From contig JAFZDY010000046.1 of the NCBI GenBank assembly GCA_017560945.1, forward strand, positions 1-64,000: a DNA stretch of 64,000 nt, in the 5' to 3' direction. Below are positions 54,855 through 61,817 of this stretch, in pieces (position 1 is the first letter of the stretch; every line of letters starts with the position of its first letter). Made by a program: the position numbers and the translations under genes. The notes under the pieces are model-generated. The model was not told the DNA's origin. It worked only from the letters and a program-made list of their open reading frames with translations, and did not search any database. The DNA is from Bacteroidaceae bacterium. GTDB lineage: Bacteria; Bacteroidota; Bacteroidia; Bacteroidales; Bacteroidaceae.

Positions 54855-54903
54855 ATATTCTTTATTTTTATATGGTTTTAGTCTCTTTTTTAACGCTCAT
54901 TTT

Positions 54904-55029
54904 CTACTTGGTAAAGTGTCTTTCGCTACTTGGCCAACTACCTTCGGCTACTTGGCCAACTACCCGCGGCTACTTGGCCAACTGGCGACGGCTACTTGGC
55001 CAAGTAGAAAAAGGTACTTGGCCAAGCAG
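54904..55029. repeat. 22-nt-period palindrome array F3
   Basis: CTACTTGG starts a new unit at 54904, 54926, 54948, 54970 and 54992, with a sixth unit (TACTTGG) at 55015. The first four steps are exactly 22 nt. Unit 5 contains the perfect 16-nt palindrome CTACTTGGCCAAGTAG; the others keep TTGGCCAA and vary outside. The array fills the leuA2-leuB gap. Confidence 0.9.
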
Positions 55030-55042
55030 ATTTTTGCCCATC

Positions 55043-56623
55043 CTATTCTATCATATTCAGCATCTTGATGGTGGCCTTGATGGCTGCTTCCGTCTGGTCG
55101 GCATCGAGTCCTCGGGTGCGTAGGGTTTTCCCCTCGTGCTCCCATGTGATGACCGTTTGTACGAAGGCATCGGTGCGTCCGCCGGGTGGGATGGTGACGG
55201 CATAGTTGGTCAGCATGGGGAAGGTGCGACCCAGTGACTCCTTATATATCTTGCGCAAGGCACGCACGAAGGCATCGTATTGACCGTCTCCACTGGAGTT
55301 CTGCTCGTACTCCTCGCCATTGATTTCTATCTTCACCGTAGCCATGGGCTTGAGTCCGTATGCCAGGTTCACGAAGTAACTCTTCAACTTTACGCGGTCC
55401 TCCTGGATGTCGTGCTTCAGCACATCGCTTATAATATAGGGTAAGTCCTCCTGCGTCACGAGTTCCTTTTTGTCGCCCAATTCGATGATGCGCTCCGTCA
55501 CCTTCTTCATCGCCTCTTCCGAAAGTTCAAGTCCCAATGCCTCCAGATTCTTTCGGATGTTGGCTTTTCCGCTCGCCTTACCGAGGGCATATTCACGTTT
55601 GCGACCAAAGCGCTCGGGCAGAAGGTCGTTCTGGTAAAGGTTGTTTTTGTTGTCTCCATCGGCGTGTACACCAGCCACTTGGGTGAAGACATTTTCGCCA
55701 ATGATGGGTTTGTTGGCTGGTATGCTGATGCCCGAGTACGACTCCACGATGCGGCTCACCTCGTTCAATCGGCTTTCGTCGATGCTTGTGATGGCTTCGA
55801 AGTGGTCTTTCAAGATGGCTTGTACGCTGGATATAGGTGCATTTCCACATCGTTCGCCAAGGCCGTTCACCGAGGTGTGTATGCCCTGACAACCGCTCAG
55901 TACGGCGGCCAACACATTGCTGATGGCCAAGTCATAGTCGTTGTGTGCATGAAAGTCGAATCGTACATCGGGGTAGCGTTTCTTCATCTTGCGCATATAT
56001 CCGATGACCTGCAGGGGGTTGAGTACACCCAATGTATCGGGCAACATGAATCGGCAGATGGAGGTCTCCTTCAATGTGTCCATCATCTGGAAGACATATT
56101 CAGGTGAATCCTTCATGCCATTGCTCCAATCCTCCAAGTATAGGTTTACACTGATGCCCATCTCCTCGGCCATTTTCACCGTGTCGATAATACCAGTCAA
56201 GTGCTCCTCGGGTGTCTTTTTCAATTGATGAGTACAATGGCGTAACGAGCCTTTGGCAAGCAGGTTCACAACCTTTCCTCCGGCCTCCTTTATCCATCGT
56301 AGTGATTCTCCACCATCTACGAAACCGAGTACCTCCACACGGTCAAGCATGTCGCGTCGTGAGGCCCATTCGCATATCATCCTCACCGCCTCGAACTCGC
56401 CATCAGATACTCTGGCAGAGCCTACCTCCACACGGTCGACCTTCAACTCCTCCAACAATAGGCGAGCAATCATCAACTTCTCATGGGGGATAAAACTCAC
56501 TCCGCTCGTCTGTTCACCATCGCGCAGAGTGGTATCCATTATTTCGATGAAAGACCCACCCCGTCCCTCCCTGTGAGGGAGGGGGTAAGATGACATATCT
56601 GTATTATTTATATTTTTGTTCAT
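55043..56623 (-). CDS. second 2-isopropylmalate/citramalate synthase-type enzyme
   Basis: 526 residues: a HMGL-like catalytic barrel beginning [17 protein letters not shown], with RVEVGSARVSDGEF, HNDYDLAISN and VNGLGERCGNAP, and a C-terminal LeuA-type regulatory domain. Its closest pattern is the citramalate synthase/LeuA paralogue of Bacteroidales leu operons, so it may feed isoleucine synthesis. The substrate is not certain. The first ~25 residues from the ATG at 56623 include a family B repeat (SYPLPHREGRGG); a start at 56539 (MDTTLRDG) would exclude it. Confidence 0.88.
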   Translation of the reverse strand: MNKNINNTDMSSYPLPHREGRGGSFIEIMDTTLRDGEQTSGVSFIPHEKLMIARLLLEELKVDRVEVGSARVSDGEFEAVRMICEWASRRDMLDRVEVLGFVDGGESLRWIKEAGGKVVNLLAKGSLRHCTHQLKKTPEEHLTGIIDTVKMAEEMGISVNLYLEDWSNGMKDSPEYVFQMMDTLKETSICRFMLPDTLGVLNPLQVIGYMRKMKKRYPDVRFDFHAHNDYDLAISNVLAAVLSGCQGIHTSVNGLGERCGNAPISSVQAILKDHFEAITSIDESRLNEVSRIVESYSGISIPANKPIIGENVFTQVAGVHADGDNKNNLYQNDLLPERFGRKREYALGKASGKANIRKNLEALGLELSEEAMKKVTERIIELGDKKELVTQEDLPYIISDVLKHDIQEDRVKLKSYFVNLAYGLKPMATVKIEINGEEYEQNSSGDGQYDAFVRALRKIYKESLGRTFPMLTNYAVTIPPGGRTDAFVQTVITWEHEGKTLRTRGLDADQTEAAIKATIKMLNMIE

Positions 56624-56681
56624 TTGTAAATCGTGAGTATTTTTAATACCCTCCCTCACAGGGAGGGACGGGGTGGGTCTC
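56553..56681. repeat. family B inverted pair at the leuD/leuA2 junction
   Basis: GACCCACCCCGTCCCTCCCTG and its following hairpin (56553-56585) recur in inverted orientation at 56648-56681. Each copy holds the hairpin CCCTCCCT-GTG-AGGGAGGG. The arms match over about 31 bases and are 62 bases apart. One arm is in the leuA2 reading frame, the other in the leuD frame. Confidence 0.9.
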
Positions 56682-57287
56682 TTTTTCAAACTCTTCAATC
56701 TTCTCTTTACTTTCCAACAAGAAGTCAATGTCGTCGAGCGCATTCATCAAGCAATATTTCTTGTAATTGTTGATGTCGAAGTATTCGCTATGGCCAGTGG
56801 CGAGATTGGTTACCGTCTGAGCAGGAAGGTCCACCCTTACTTCGGCTTGTGGGTCAGCCTCTATGGTGTCGAACAATTCTTGTTGAAACTTCTCGCTCAC
56901 GATGACAGGAAGCACAAAGCAGTTGAGCAGATTATTGCGATGAATATCGGCAAACGAACTACTGATGACTACACGCACACCGTAGCCGGCAATGGCCCAT
57001 GCGGCATGTTCGCGACTCGAACCGCTACCCCAGTTCTGTCCACCTATGATGATTTCGTGTACACCTTGGCGCGGTGCTTCGCTATACTCCGCTTTGTTCA
57101 TCACAAAGTCTGCCACAGGTTTTCCCTCTGCATCGAAACGAAGGTCGTGCATGAATGCATCACCAAAGAATTGTGGGTCGCGTGTGGTACTGGCCAAATA
57201 ACGTGCAGGGATGATGAGGTCAGTATTACAATTGTCTATCCGAATGGGTAAACAAGTGGATTGTATGATGTTGAATTTCTGTTTCAT
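56643..57287 (-). CDS. leuD: 3-isopropylmalate dehydratase, small subunit
   Basis: LeuD with LeuC isomerises 2- to 3-isopropylmalate. From the ATG at 57287 (MKQKFNIIQSTCLPI) it has 214 residues: DNCNTDLIIPARYL, NWGSGSSREHAAWAIAGYGVRVVISSSFADIHRNN. The last ~15 residues (ETHPVPPCEGGY) are translated from a family B repeat and extend the usual ~200-residue protein. The longer frame to 57341 would translate a family C repeat and is rejected. Confidence 0.94.
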   Translation of the reverse strand: MKQKFNIIQSTCLPIRIDNCNTDLIIPARYLASTTRDPQFFGDAFMHDLRFDAEGKPVADFVMNKAEYSEAPRQGVHEIIIGGQNWGSGSSREHAAWAIAGYGVRVVISSSFADIHRNNLLNCFVLPVIVSEKFQQELFDTIEADPQAEVRVDLPAQTVTNLATGHSEYFDINNYKKYCLMNALDDIDFLLESKEKIEEFEKETHPVPPCEGGY

Positions 57288-57296
57288 AATGGAATA

Positions 57297-57459
57297 CCCC
57301 CTCTGTCCGTTGGGCATCTCCCCCTCTATGGGGAGAGCCATTCGGATGTTTGGAGGATTTAATTAATGAATTATTCTGTTTTATCGCTATTATCCGTTGA
57401 AGAAGACATCCCAGAGGTCTCCCCATAGAGGGGGAGATGCCCAACGGGCAGAGGGGGTC
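57297..57459. repeat. family C inverted pair without a gene
   Basis: Two head-to-head copies of the family C element (57297-57357 and 57404-57459). Each holds a GCCC-GTT-GGGC-type hairpin and a TCTCCCC/GGGGAGA hairpin. The pair is separated by about 46 bases and sits at the leuC/leuD junction, overlapping the leuC 3' end. Confidence 0.9.
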
Positions 57460-58903
57460 TGCTTATCACTCCCGTTACCGCACTTGCCGCCACCACGAGT
57501 GGACTTGCCAGGATGGTGCGTGCACCTGGTCCTTGACGACCTACGAAGTTTCGGTTGCTCGTTGAGATGGAGAGCTTACCAGCTGGCACCTTGTCGGGAT
57601 TCATGGCCAAACAGGATGAACATGAGGGCAGACGGAGTTCAAAACCTGCTTCTTCAAGTATCTTGTCAATACCCTCGTCGATAATCTGCTGGCGCACGAG
57701 CCACGAGCCTGGTACAAGCCATGCAACCACATTCGGAGCTTTCTTCTTTCCTTTTACCACTGAAGCAAAGGCACGGAAGTCCTCTATGCGTCCGTTGGTG
57801 CAAGCACCGAGAAAACAATAATCCACAGGGGTACCTTCTAATTTCTGCCCAGGCTTGAATTGCATGTAGTCAAGCATAGAAAGGAATTGGGTGCGGTCAG
57901 CTTCGTTCACCTCTTCCAATGTGGGGATGCACTCGTCGATGGCAATACCTGCCCCAGGATTGGTGCCATAGGTAATGCGCGGTGCAATGTCTTCTGCATA
58001 ATAGGTCACCTCTTTGTCGAATACGGCATCGGGGTCAGAGTAGAGCATCTTCCATTTTTCCACGGCCTTGTCCCATTCCTCACCTTTGGGAGCATATTCG
58101 CGTCCCTTCAGGTATTCAAATGTGGTCTCATCGGGGGCAATCAATCCTGCACGACTTCCCATCTCGATGCTGAGATTAGAGAGTGTCAGTCTTCCCTCCA
58201 TCGACATATTGCGCACGGTCGAACCTGAATATTCTACCGCATAACCCGTTGCTCCTGAAGTAGTCATCTGTGCCATGATGTAGAGTGCCACATCCTTGGC
58301 GGTAACTCCTTCAGCCAATGTGCCTTCTATGTTGATGCGCATAGTCTTTGGTTTGCTTTGCAAGATTGTTTGCGAGGCCAATACTTGCGCCACTTCACTT
58401 GTGCCAATACCCATTGCTATAGCACCTACGGCTCCATGAGTGGAGGTGTGCGAGTCGCCACACACGATGGTCATTCCTGGCAGAGATAGAGCCTTTTCGG
58501 GGCCTACTACATGGATAATGCCATTGTCCTTTGTACCCATGGCAAAGTGACGGATGCCAAACTCTGCGCAATTCTTCGCCAGTGTCTCCACCTGTTTTCG
58601 TCCTACTGGGTCGTCAATGCGTTCTTGCTGGTCACTCGGAGTGTTATGATCAGGCATTGCCACCACCTGTTCGGGGCGGAATACGCTAATTTTCTTGTCT
58701 CTTAACGTATCGAATGCTTGCGGAGTTGTCACCTCGTGACAATACAGACGATCGATGTAGAGTTGAGTAGGACCATCTTCCACGTTTTGTACTACGTGGG
58801 CAGACCATATTTTGTCGAATAAACAGACCCCCTCTGCCCGCAGGGCATCTCCCCCTCTATGGGGAGAACCATCCGGAGTTTTTATGTTCATTTCTTTATC
58901 CAT
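57371..58903 (-). CDS. leuC: 3-isopropylmalate dehydratase, large subunit
   Basis: LeuC is the [4Fe-4S] subunit of isopropylmalate isomerase. The core shows [48 protein letters not shown] and [18 protein letters not shown]. At 510 residues it exceeds the usual ~465. The first ~27 residues ([18 protein letters not shown]) and the last ~30 ([18 protein letters not shown]) are translated from family C repeats. Its ATG shares a base with the DUF559 stop (TAATG), so the two are coupled. Confidence 0.95.
58825..58883. repeat. family C repeat, left flank of the DUF559 gene
   Basis: Same orientation as the copy at 57297: CCCCCTCTGCCCGCAGGGC, then a TCTCCCC...GGGGAGA hairpin. It lies inside the leuC frame and forms an inverted pair with 59296-59343. 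Confidence 0.9.
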
Positions 58904-59271
58904 TACAATGCTGTTTTTATTGTTGTTATTACTTTCATTGTTTCATTTATAACTTCTTCATTGGTAAAACGCAATACACGAAAGCCAAAACGTTCAAGTT
59001 CTTCTGTCCTATAGACATCATATTCCATCTGAACCTCTGTAAAATGATATGCACCATCCACCTCTATAATAAGTTTCTTTTCCAAACATACAAAATCGGC
59101 AATGAAATCATAAATAATATGTTGCCGTTTAAACTTTACTCCAAATGTTTCTTCACGCAACTGTTGCCATAAGCATTTTTCCGCATGGGTTTGATTATTC
59201 CTGTTTTCGCGGGCAAATGTTTTTAATAAATCGTAGCGATCAGGACTGGCTGTCTGAAAATTACGTATCAT
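58903..59271 (-). CDS. DUF559 restriction-endonuclease-like protein
   Basis: 122 residues from the ATG at 59271. DUF559 proteins share the fold of Vsr mismatch endonuclease. Visible are [22 protein letters not shown], the active-site region [23 protein letters not shown] (Asp, then Glu-Val-Asp-Gly) and the C-terminal [10 protein letters not shown]. It sits between leuA and leuC, where related operons have no gene, and is bracketed by inverted family C repeats. Function unknown; a nuclease acting on the repeats is an inference. The frame to 59310 only adds repeat sequence. Confidence 0.88.
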
Positions 59272-59295
59272 ACTTACCGTTTTTGGATAATATCT

Positions 59296-59343
59296 GCATG
59301 GTCTCCCCATAGAGGGGGAGATGCCCTACGGGCAGAGAGGGTC
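59296..59343. repeat. family C repeat, right flank of the DUF559 gene
   Basis: Inverted copy: GGTCTCCCCATAGAGGGG, then GATGCCCTACGGGCAGAG. It begins one base past the leuA stop codon and pairs with the copy at 58825-58883. Confidence 0.9.
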
Positions 59344-59344
59344 T

Positions 59345-60838
59345 TCACTTAAACTTATTGATACAATCAATATATGCTTCTACGGAGGCGGCGATGATGT
59401 CCGTATTGGCGCCGAAACCATAGTAGATGTGGCCATCGTACTCTACTTGCATGTGCACCTTTCCCATGTCGTCCGAACCTTTGCTGATGGCTTGGATGGT
59501 AAACTCTTTCAATATCATGTGACGATCAATTATTTTCTTCAATGCCTTGATGGCCGCATCTACAGGGCCATTTCCGCTTGCGCAGGCTTCGAACTTTTCA
59601 CCACTGATATTGAGGCCAAGACTGGCTACAGATTGCACTCCCACACCGCTGGTGACTTGTAGGTAGTCCAACTTGATGCGATGATTTTCTGTACGATCGG
59701 CACCAGCCAGAAGCATGATATCATCGTCGTTGATGTCCTTTTTCTTGTCTGCTAATTTTAAGAATTCTTCGTACACTTTGTCGAGTTTTTCCTGCTCGAG
59801 ATTGATGCCGAGGGAGTGTAGGCGATTCTTCAAGGCCGCGCGTCCGCTTCGGGCGGTTAAGACGATGCTGTTGTCATCGATGCCGACATCCTTTGGGTCG
59901 ATGATTTCGTATGTCTGTACGTTCTTCAGCACTCCGTCTTGGTGGATACCGCTTGAGTGTGCAAAGGCATTGCGTCCGACAATAGCTTTGTTGGGTTGCA
60001 CGGGCATGTTCATCAGTGAACTTACCATACGGCTGGTGGGGTAGATTCTCTGCGTATTGATGTTAGTCTCAATGTCGATGTCCTTGTGACACTTGATGAT
60101 CATGGCTACCTCTTCGAGCGAAGTGTTTCCTGCCCGTTCACCTATGCCGTTGATGGTCACTTCCACTTGGCGTGCACCATTCAGGATGCCGCTCATGGTG
60201 TTTGCCGTGGCCATACCCAAGTCGTTGTGACAATGGGTGGAGATGATGGCATTATGAATGCCGTTCACGTGCTCCATCAGGTACTTTATCTTTGCACCAT
60301 ATTCGGCAGGTAAACAATATCCTGTTGTGTCTGGTATATTTACTACTGTGGCGCCTGCTTTGATGACGGCTTCGATGACGCGGGCCAAATACTCGTTGTC
60401 CGTTCGTCCAGCGTCTTCCGCATAAAACTCTACGTCCTCCACATAGCGCTTGGCATACTTTACGGCCGCTACGGCACGTTCAATAATTTCTTCGCGATTG
60501 GAGTTGAATTTGTACTTGATGTGTTCGTCGCTCGTGCCAATGCCAGTGTGTATGCGTTTGCGTTTGGCAAACTTCAGAGCTTCGGCAGCTATGTCGATGT
60601 CGCGCTCTACGGCGCGGGTCAGTGCGCAGATGGTGGGCCATGTGACGGCCTTCGATATCTCTATCACCGAATTGAAGTCGCCTGGGCTTGATACGGGAAA
60701 TCCTGCTTCTATCACATCCACTCCCAATAACTCCAGTTGCTTGGCCACTTGTATCTTTTCCACCGTGTTCAGTTGGCATCCTGGTACCTGTTCGCCATCG
60801 CGAAGTGTCGTGTCAAAAATGAATAATCTGTCGCTCAT
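59345..60838 (-). CDS. leuA: 2-isopropylmalate synthase
   Basis: LeuA commits carbon to leucine synthesis. From the ATG at 60838 ([22 protein letters not shown]) it has 497 residues. Motifs are [58 protein letters not shown] and the C-terminal LeuA regulatory domain. The frame running up to 60949 passes through the attenuator terminator and is rejected. It is the first gene of the leu operon, preceded by a leader-peptide attenuator. Confidence 0.95.
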
Positions 60839-60890
60839 TGTCTTAATTTTATTTTTCTTAGGTATGAAAAAAGTTTTTTCTCTGTAGGGT

Positions 60891-60932
60891 AAAAAAAGAA
60901 ACCTTTCACACGGGGAAGTGAGAAAGGTTTCT
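60891..60932 (-). terminator. leu operon attenuator terminator
   Basis: On the minus strand AGAAACCTTTC and GAAAGGTTTCT form an 11-bp stem followed by seven T, ending 53 bases before leuA. The loop contains CTCACTTCCC, complementary to GGGAAGTGAG within the leader peptide, so an alternative anti-terminator pairing exists. Confidence 0.85.
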
Positions 60933-60962
60933 TTTTTATGAATCTGCAATCATGCAACGGCT

Positions 60963-61052
60963 TCAATATACCACATAACACTCACTTCCCACCAGACTTC
61001 CCAGTAGAATAATAATAATGTTTAGTAGGTTAATGTTTAGCAGTTGTTTCAT
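60963..61052 (-). CDS. leuL: leu leader peptide (29 residues)
   Basis: A short frame starting ATG at 61052 and ending TGA at 60963. It begins MKQLLNINLLNIIIILLGS and contains seven Leu, five Ile and three Val out of 29 residues. The cluster of branched-chain codons ends just before a segment (60981-60990) that can pair with the terminator loop. This is the layout of a ribosome-mediated attenuator: stalling at Leu/Ile codons would favour the anti-terminator. It is too short for the usual gene cutoff. The function is inferred from layout. Confidence 0.8.
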   Translation of the reverse strand: MKQLLNINLLNIIIILLGSLVGSECYVVY

Positions 61053-61085
61053 GTCTTTTTCTTATGATTTACGATTAAAACGGTG

Positions 61086-61115
61086 CAAATGTAGGTATAA
61101 TTTTGATATTGCAAA
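61086..61115 (-). promoter_or_regulatory. leu operon promoter
   Basis: On the minus strand TTTG (61115-61112), an 18-nt spacer and TACATTTG (61093-61086). The spacer is short by one or two bases. Transcription would start about 30 bases before the leader peptide. Confidence 0.6.
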
Positions 61116-61457
61116 AGAAAAATGTCACTTTTTTCGTTAAAATGATGACATTTTATAATATTTTGATAAAATGGGTGGGTGAGTGACTAATGACTGGTGG
61201 CTTGTGACTATCAACTTCTTTGAACCTTGAATCTTGAATCTTGACTTGCGCAGCTTGATGAGCGATAGCGAACTAATTTTGAACCTTTCACTAATTCTCG
61301 TCACTCCTTTGAATCCTTAAAAATATCAAAACTTAATAAAGAATCGCGCGCGAAAGTTCATACGAGCGGAAAAAAGAATGTATATTTGCAACCTTTTTGA
61401 GAGATAGATTGTAGTAAAAGGAAAAATATTCGAAGAAAAACCAAATAGGAAATAAGC

Positions 61458-61817
61458 ATGAACGAAACAAAGAACTTAGTACAAAAGATAGTAGAAGGTA
61501 TTCAGGAGAAGAAGGGTAAGAACATCGTAGTGGCAGATTTGACATCTATTCACGAGACAATATGCAAGTATTTCGTTATTTGTCAGGGAAACTCTCCCTC
61601 GCACGTGAGTTCTATCGTAGACGAAGTGTGGGACTATGTGCGTGAGCATGAAGGTTCGAAACCCTCGGCCATTGATGGTCAAACAAATGCCCAGTGGGTG
61701 GCAATGGATTACTCAGACGTCATTGTGCACGTGTTCCTCCCCGAAGTGCGCGAGTTCTACAACTTGGAGCATTTGTGGGCTGATGCTAAATTGGAAAAGA
61801 TTGCAGATTTGGATTGA
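61458..61817 (+). CDS. rsfS: ribosomal silencing factor RsfS
   Basis: RsfS binds L14 and blocks subunit joining when nutrients are scarce. The 119-residue protein has the family core NIVVADLTSIHETICKYFVICQGNSPSHVSSI, DGQTNAQWVAMDYSDVIVHVFLPEVREFYNLEHLWADA. It lies 8 bases before ftsH, so the two are co-transcribed. Confidence 0.95.
   Translation: MNETKNLVQKIVEGIQEKKGKNIVVADLTSIHETICKYFVICQGNSPSHVSSIVDEVWDYVREHEGSKPSAIDGQTNAQWVAMDYSDVIVHVFLPEVREFYNLEHLWADAKLEKIADLD

Follow-up and report, generated by a model that had tools for sequence, protein, structure and literature searches.

In the REP/RAYT system the RAYT genes are low in copy number, as are the DUF559 genes described here. BoxC repeats, a second family of bacterial palindromes, were first noticed in E. 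coli in the 1990s. The cited part of a 2015 survey gives the “intrastrand triplex” layout of BoxC, PIT and TM repeats as C-stem, loop, G-stem, short linker and second G-stem, and reports that no mobility activity was ever detected near its E. coli triplex-repeat sites (PMC4666352). DUF559 (PF04480) itself appears in the cited parts of three further studies: YcjD detected Vsr in a profile study of 2005 (PMC1189080), a cyanobacterial DUF559 gene was assigned to the EDxHD homing-endonuclease family (PMC9403480), and a Caulobacter DUF559 protein, VsrA, was proposed as a mismatch-repair nuclease and linked to a cytosine methylase and the SOS response (PMC12907096). Among the matches listed in a search of open-licence PMC papers, none ties DUF559 or YcjD to these repeats.

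The window analysed here is a stretch of 64,000 nucleotides (positions 1-64,000 of the forward strand of contig JAFZDY010000046.1) from the genome of a Bacteroidaceae bacterium (GCA_017560945.1; 2.35 Mb, 82% complete). It contains a leu cluster on the minus strand, four genes of which are leuA (60949-59345), leuC, leuD and a second IPMS-like gene, and a palindromic element is found in each of the three junctions between these four (Table 1). The initial annotation had placed a DUF559 gene between inverted two-hairpin repeats at the leuA-leuC junction, and this is borne out: the ORF matches the Pfam DUF559 family at E 2.8e-34, and the arms, 43 nt each with 434 nt between them, are 95% complementary. 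The ends of the unit read AGACC...GGTCT, and single-stranded DNA folding gives two hairpins in each arm (z -1.95 and -2.44). The gene length first given, 122 residues, is correct from an internal ATG at 59271, but the first ATG yields the longer protein of Table 1. Similarly, the unit does measure 520 bp (58825-59344) and does abut the leuA stop codon TGA (59345-59347), but its end had been placed one base off. The first leuC ATG (58903-58901) overlaps the DUF559 stop codon, and in the window the arm reads as an N-terminal extension of LeuC. A nearby gene-less inverted pair of the same repeat had also been noted; it is present between leuC and leuD, with arms that are 98% complementary. The third pair is of a different repeat, its arms being 100% complementary with 65 nt between them. 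The junction before leuB (54900-55030) has a tandem, partly palindromic repeat (CTACTTGGCCAA...) that is unlike those of the other three leu junctions. The arms were also considered as a known structured RNA, but there is no Rfam match in 55000-61500.

Table 1. Coordinates of the palindromic elements and associated features in the leu cluster of the window.
Feature	Position	Strand	Remarks
Arm 1 of DUF559 unit	58825..58867	+	Two hairpins; AGACC at outer end; inverted-repeat search and folding
DUF559 gene	58903..59310	-	135 aa; PD-(D/E)XK / Vsr-type nuclease family; Pfam match
Arm 2, inverted copy of arm 1	59302..59344	-	Abuts leuA stop codon
LeuC N-terminal extension encoded by DUF559 unit	58825..58903	-	ORF reading and congener comparison
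Gene-less inverted pair, repeat as in DUF559 unit, leuC-leuD junction	57296..57458	.	Arms 57296-57336 and 57418-57458; 81 nt between arms
Gene-less inverted pair, second repeat type (AGACCCACCCC...), leuD/next-gene junction	56552..56680	.	Arms 56552-56583 and 56649-56680; BoxC-like layout

A search of the 2.35-Mb genome with the main hairpin's 22-mer, tolerating up to 3 mismatches, gives 4 matches, all of them exact and all within the same 2-kb stretch of the window, compared with 1 match for the pattern read backwards. A pattern for the second repeat type has 12 exact matches as opposed to 0 for its reversed form. An inverted partner lies no further than about 130 nt away for six of these, and a seventh is partnered at a distance of 385 nt; the other five stand alone, two of them truncated by contig ends. 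The genome has one PF04480 match, and a profile search of the 82%-complete assembly for PF01797, the RAYT-type transposase, gave no match.

The leuA-leuC junction could be recovered in 13 congeners, a comparison that the initial annotation had called for. The DUF559 unit is absent from 11 of them, ten having short junctions and one (G109) a longer junction with other content, while the remaining two (G193, G201) have a DUF559 unit with a different arm type. Where the window reads AATAAAC/AGACCC...GGGTCT/TCACTTAAAC, close relatives read AATAAAC-TTTTCATTTTTTTG-TCACTTAAAC; the insertion replaces about 14 nt including the leuC start codon. No target-site duplication is visible between the window and these congeners, although the genomes are too diverged for a firm verdict. 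The same unit with the same arm type is found at leuA-leuC in seven other loci (L131-L135, L022, L068), where the DUF559 proteins are 67-83% identical, so the insertion is old and has been retained. The leu-site DUF559 gene is under purifying selection (mean pN/pS 0.17 over 28 pairs). One of these loci (L134) also has an inverted pair between leuC and leuD of the same kind as the gene-less pair of the window. At leuC-leuD in a relative, L131 (2290-2810), another small ORF is flanked by copies of a GTTAACTCC-type repeat facing both ways, and this may be a junction element of a second kind; we take the ORF to resemble a four-helix-bundle / 23S rRNA intervening-sequence protein.

A comparable arrangement is seen in another phylum: in Sinorhizobium sp. 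C101 a repeat dimer, DUF559 and a second repeat dimer separate a pair of genes that are immediate neighbours in Shinella. Sequence comparison of related genomes thus shows gene and arms as one unit, which a given gene junction either has or lacks. In S. meliloti (L280, 2900-4380) ISRm16, of the IS4 family, sits inside the right-hand repeat dimer of a DUF559 unit. On Deinococcus plasmids (L276, L338, L348) DUF559 is found at different junctions of the same hpa cluster, which suggests separate insertions. In E. coli the sapF-fabI interval contains either ycjD (L283, 1796-2149) or an efflux operon (L284, L285), depending on the strain; the operon upstream of fabI is named eef in the cited part of PMC12817139. 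Because this operon lies upstream of fabI in both ycjD-lacking strains compared, these are not clean empty sites, and E. coli was discarded as an example of an exact one.

A PF04480 match was obtained in 70 of the 201 family genomes sampled. Arms were scored as the best local alignment between the 350 bp upstream of a domain and the reverse complement of the 350 bp downstream, with a threshold of 14. This score was reached by 82 of 112 DUF559 domains as opposed to 2 of 356 identically arranged windows shifted by 1.3-1.9 kb. For the named genomes (80 loci, partly shared with the 112-domain set) it was reached by 66 of 81 scored domains, 2 of 83 having been excluded as too near a contig end, and by 13 of 1147 windows. 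The wider sample comprises the class of G203, with PF04480 in 124 of 247 genomes; here the figures were 16 of 21 domains and 0 of 130 windows on large contigs, and 17 of 31 domains in the 30 best-scoring loci (L287-L316), for which the control consists of two windows only. All loci were drawn from the best-scoring matches and are therefore non-random, and domains aligned over fewer than 80 residues (112-domain set) or 70 residues (named-genome and wider-sample sets) were excluded. Thus DUF559 genes elsewhere are enriched for flanking palindromes, one of the two points on which the initial annotation had said its reading should be judged. The class of G203 is probably Bacteroidia, since the RecG that brought this genome in is 79% identical to the RecG of Flavobacterium. 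A contig deposited as Limnohabitans (L173) has a RecG 79% identical to that of Flavobacterium, and the record is probably misnamed or contaminated.

After 18 of 193 elements of the 112-domain and named-genome sets had been removed as duplicates, matched inverted C-rich arms were found in 133 of 175 DUF559 elements from Bacteroidaceae and relatives, the other 42 scoring below 14. The arms vary between elements and agree within a pair. Their common theme is AGACCC(A/T/C)CCCC-nn-CCCCTCCC-loop-GGGAGGGG, and the commonest arm starts in the family are AGACCC and AGCCCC. Viral DUF559 homologues are more distant (29-50% identity), and an arm pair scoring at least 14 accompanies 4 of 46 of them (controls, 6 of 652), with 1 of 46 scoring at least 18. 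The association with arms is thus one of a subset of DUF559.

Read on the reverse strand, the arms follow the order C-stem, loop, G-stem, short linker, second G-stem. A simple test recognises this BoxC layout in 89 of 112 left arms and in 0.04% of shuffled arms. The 56552 pair of the window satisfies the test, whereas the arms of its DUF559 unit, with a small extra hairpin in the linker, fail it. Outside the Bacteroidota, 23 of the 38 plasmid-collection matches (Pseudomonadota, Cyanobacteriota, Deinococcota) were scanned with a BoxC motif that was written after the first 11 loci had been inspected; a BoxC-type repeat lies within 500 bp of DUF559 in 17 of the 23, E. coli ycjD included, with the motif in 10 of those first 11 and in 7 of the 12 later ones. 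The remaining 6 lack such a repeat, and the controls gave 5 of 46 for equal windows at locus ends and 1 of 46 for viral homologues. Ten of the 23 loci have an inverted pair scoring at least 25. Copy 9 in Table 1 of the 2015 survey is presumably, from its position, the one beside ycjD in MG1655. Three copies in that table, 9, 16 and 19, are identical in sequence to a repeat beside ycjD in E. coli KE47 (L260; PMC4666352). The exact E. coli TM consensus gave 0 matches in two Bacteroidota-like genomes, G203 and G204. The initial annotation had not seen that most arms share the BoxC/PIT layout known from other phyla, nor that the units are often translated together with host genes.

One arm pattern of the second type was searched in the 201 genomes, two or more copies being counted as positive. 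With kinship ignored, 29 of 61 genomes with full-length DUF559 were positive as opposed to 4 of 140 without (p 5e-14), 9 of the 70 genomes having been counted as negative for DUF559 on account of weak or partial matches only. The pattern is absent from 29 of the 61 genomes with DUF559. Conversely, three genomes without a DUF559 match (G151, G089, G145; 78-88% complete) have 10-38 pattern matches each, and six more have 1-3 each. The repeats had been expected to be equally common in genomes lacking DUF559 if the initial reading were wrong; this one pattern of the class is far commoner where the gene is present. Gene-less pairs and single repeats exist, and these genome comparisons show them more often in genomes with DUF559. 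Genomes with a Y1 (RAYT-type) transposase showed no association with the pattern over the same 201 genomes (14 of 71 vs 19 of 130, kinship ignored). Given this result and the lack of PF01797 in the genome of the window, RAYT/IS200 was rejected as the mover.

Most units lie upstream of a gene read in the same direction: the downstream gene is co-directional in 95 of 109 classified elements, 3 further elements being left unclassified in the read-through test. For 78 of these 95, the frame of the downstream gene has an ATG inside the element and is open through the arm, compared with 25 of 190 for the other two frames, and in 53 of the 78 there is no ATG within 25 codons outside the element. In the wider sample many DUF559 copies lie inside long frames, as do most of those in its 30 best-scoring loci. 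The named-genome and wider-sample loci include 39 frames of at least 1300 nt that carry DUF559; 16 were scanned for domains, and all 16 have host domains around DUF559. The host ORFs with in-frame DUF559 include LeuRS, IleRS, ValRS, MetH, RecG, RecJ, acetyl-CoA synthetase, PurL, HsdR and GH31, as well as UDP-GlcNAc 2-epimerase and poly(A) polymerase, for which the second host stretch is known by number only. The LeuRS of L287 aligns to the solved LeuRS 1h3n on both sides of the insert, and its editing domain contains an in-frame gene-less repeat pair at a site occupied by DUF559 in other genomes.

The assignment of the DUF559 fold rests on sequence matches and the literature. Every one of the 174-175 sequences that has a residue at the respective position shows E27, D55, E66 and H72 (as numbered in the 115-aa domain), and D81 is conserved too; by analogy, these residues may have a catalytic role. 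In a profile search of solved structures the best matches were 3hrl (E 2.7e-29), described as an endonuclease-like protein, and 3r3p (E 1.9e-6), described as a mobile intron protein, followed by PvuRts1I (E about 0.006). The presence of a mobile intron protein among the two leading structure matches is a further addition to the initial annotation; we take 3r3p to be I-Bth0305I, an EDxHD homing endonuclease. The E. coli gene ycjD is a DUF559 gene, the BL21 copy matching PF04480 at E 1.4e-49; a control run of the PF04480 profile on an E. coli genome gave no match despite this.

Arm sequence follows the protein lineage more than the host genome. For 112 elements with good arms (63 of the 175, with a pair score below 18 or arms beyond 260 nt, being outside this and the read-through test), the more alike two proteins from different genomes are, the more alike are their arms (Mantel rho 0.27, a value reached in 0 of 500 permutations). 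In genomes with several elements, the arm of the nearest foreign protein is more similar than those of the other elements of the same genome in 30 cases and less so in 4, each locus of the named-genome set being treated as a separate genome, though a few share one. The relationship persists after removal of pairs with tblastx-related flanks: at unrelated flanks, the 58 pairs with 70-80% protein identity average 0.66 in arm similarity and the 2 pairs above 80% average 0.94, compared with about 0.39 at 40-55%. As arms track the protein even at unrelated flanks, the unit appears to move whole between unrelated sites. Such movement seems to be slow, since 28 of the 30 pairs above 80% identity are at related flanks and few clades occur per host site. 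Likewise, nine of the eleven DUF559 copies of G261 were compared and are 31-57% identical apart from one tandem pair, so the copies within this genome are old. The tandem pair (L318) consists of two genes 95% identical and 561 bp apart, the sole near-identical pair among the nine. A recent burst of copies was looked for and not seen among these 9 of 11 copies or the 5 of 5 of G392.

The main rival mechanism, on grounds of protein kinship, is that DUF559 acts as a homing endonuclease whose spread is confined to empty allelic sites, with the arms serving as adaptors that keep host genes expressed and in frame. We consider it unlikely, although several observations point that way. Elements at least 80% identical are mostly at related flanks (28 pairs vs 2 at unrelated flanks), and the number of clades per host site is below that of random draws, 7 vs about 16 at the leuC site and 8 vs about 17 at argC, which we take as the name of one recurrent host site (this from a quick FastTree tree of about 115 columns, which is weak). 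The insertions are in conserved housekeeping genes at recurrent sites, and the profile match to 3r3p agrees with the EDxHD assignment of a DUF559 gene in the cited part of PMC9403480. However, several protein clades are still found at the same host sites, similar proteins with similar arms occur at unrelated sites, the repeat class is also found scattered in the form of singles and gene-less pairs, and the arms co-vary with the protein.

A second alternative, which we judge improbable, makes the palindromes the target, with DUF559 genes inserting into pre-existing inverted pairs that something else has spread. The gene-less pair in the LeuRS editing domain of L287, at a site that elsewhere holds DUF559, is what such a process might leave. 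It predicts, however, that arms should match the repeats of the host genome, whereas they follow the protein (the 30 cases vs 4); in addition, arms and gene are absent together from sites without the unit, and Y1 transposases, the one other candidate mover compared, show no association with the repeats. Least credible of all is that DUF559 is a cellular, Vsr-like mismatch-repair nuclease, as proposed for Caulobacter VsrA, and a passenger beside recombinogenic repeats: the connection of a DUF559 protein with both a cytosine methylase and the SOS response (cited part of PMC12907096) and the triplex repeats reported in unstable loci (cited part of PMC4666352) would suit this, but it leaves the matched inverted arms, the unit-wise presence and absence, and the in-frame insertion in unrelated genes unexplained.

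On balance, therefore, we favour the reading that the DUF559 unit is a small, low-copy autonomous mobile element, probably consisting of a Vsr/EDxHD-type nuclease gene bounded by inverted C-rich, BoxC-like palindromes. DUF559 as the mover of the repeat is the best explanation of the comparisons above. The enzyme might recognise the folded arm (hairpin or triplex), probably when single-stranded during replication, and nick at the unpaired outer tag, AGACC in the window; host replication and recombination would then copy the unit into a new gene junction or join it there. Non-autonomous derivatives moved in trans could account for the gene-less pairs and the single repeats. Dense operons may accommodate the units because neither arms nor gene interrupt the frame that is required, and the units would either donate a start codon to the downstream gene or sit in frame inside proteins. 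Weighing against this reading are the age of the copies within G261, the lack of a visible target-site duplication at leuA-leuC, the few moves to unrelated flanks, the mismatches between arm pattern and DUF559 in both directions among the 201 genomes, the elements scoring below 14, the failure of the window's own arms in the layout test, and the six loci outside the Bacteroidota that have no repeat nearby. The initial annotation had proposed that DUF559 spreads these palindromes as a counterpart to REP/RAYT: its architecture of singles, inverted pairs and a pair with a gene is confirmed, while cutting and moving by the enzyme are still a proposal.

A broader suggestion, plausible to us but not quite probable, is that BoxC/PIT triplex-palindrome repeats owe their mobility, in all the bacterial phyla concerned, to DUF559 nucleases dedicated to this task, YcjD included. 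Together they might form a class of translatable autonomous elements distinct from REP/RAYT, moving through folded C/G-rich palindromes and giving host genes start codons or riding in frame within essential enzymes. With a candidate enzyme, the origin of BoxC-type repeats becomes testable in laboratory E. coli. If the suggestion is true, there would be a second, unrelated palindrome-plus-enzyme solution beside REP/RAYT, and a role for part of DUF559, a widespread family of unknown function. It would also mean that mobile DNA can survive in operons and housekeeping enzymes by staying translatable, as a source of new protein termini and loops.

With MITEs and IS elements the DUF559 unit shares terminal inverted repeats. 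It differs from an intein, as no protein-splicing (Hint) domain is among the Pfam matches of the 16 in-frame host ORFs. Rickettsia palindromic elements (RPE) resemble it in being palindromic and in frame within protein-coding genes (cited part of PMC10969869), but they are about 150 bp and CGTC-tagged, and CGTC repeats seem to be without a dedicated transposase in the cited parts of PMC10969869 and PMC3733652. With the EDxHD/Vsr homing endonucleases such as I-Bth0305I there is profile kinship (3r3p), homology of the nuclease domain with conserved acidic and His residues, small size, and insertion in conserved host genes. In contrast to these, the DUF559 insert is bounded by palindromes, keeps the reading frame and has no splicing domain that could be seen. 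BoxC/PIT/TM repeats have the same stem layout as most arms and likewise occur as single copies and inverted pairs; they were described without a mobility gene, however, and the arms in Bacteroidota have another sequence than the E. coli consensus, those of the window's DUF559 unit having in addition the extra linker hairpin. The likeness to REP/RAYT extends to palindromes that stand alone, form inverted pairs or enclose an enzyme gene (here the singles and most pairs are of the second arm type), to a short unpaired tag beside the hairpin, and to repeats that are commoner where the enzyme gene is present. The gene, however, is PF04480 of PD-(D/E)XK/Vsr type rather than a Y1/HUH tyrosine transposase (PF01797), the unit in the window has AGACC instead of GTAG as its tag, and the palindromes are C-rich and mostly of triplex type, in units that are often translated with host genes. 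The DUF559 unit is thus REP/RAYT-like in architecture, but departs from that system in two of its defining features, the enzyme and the tag.
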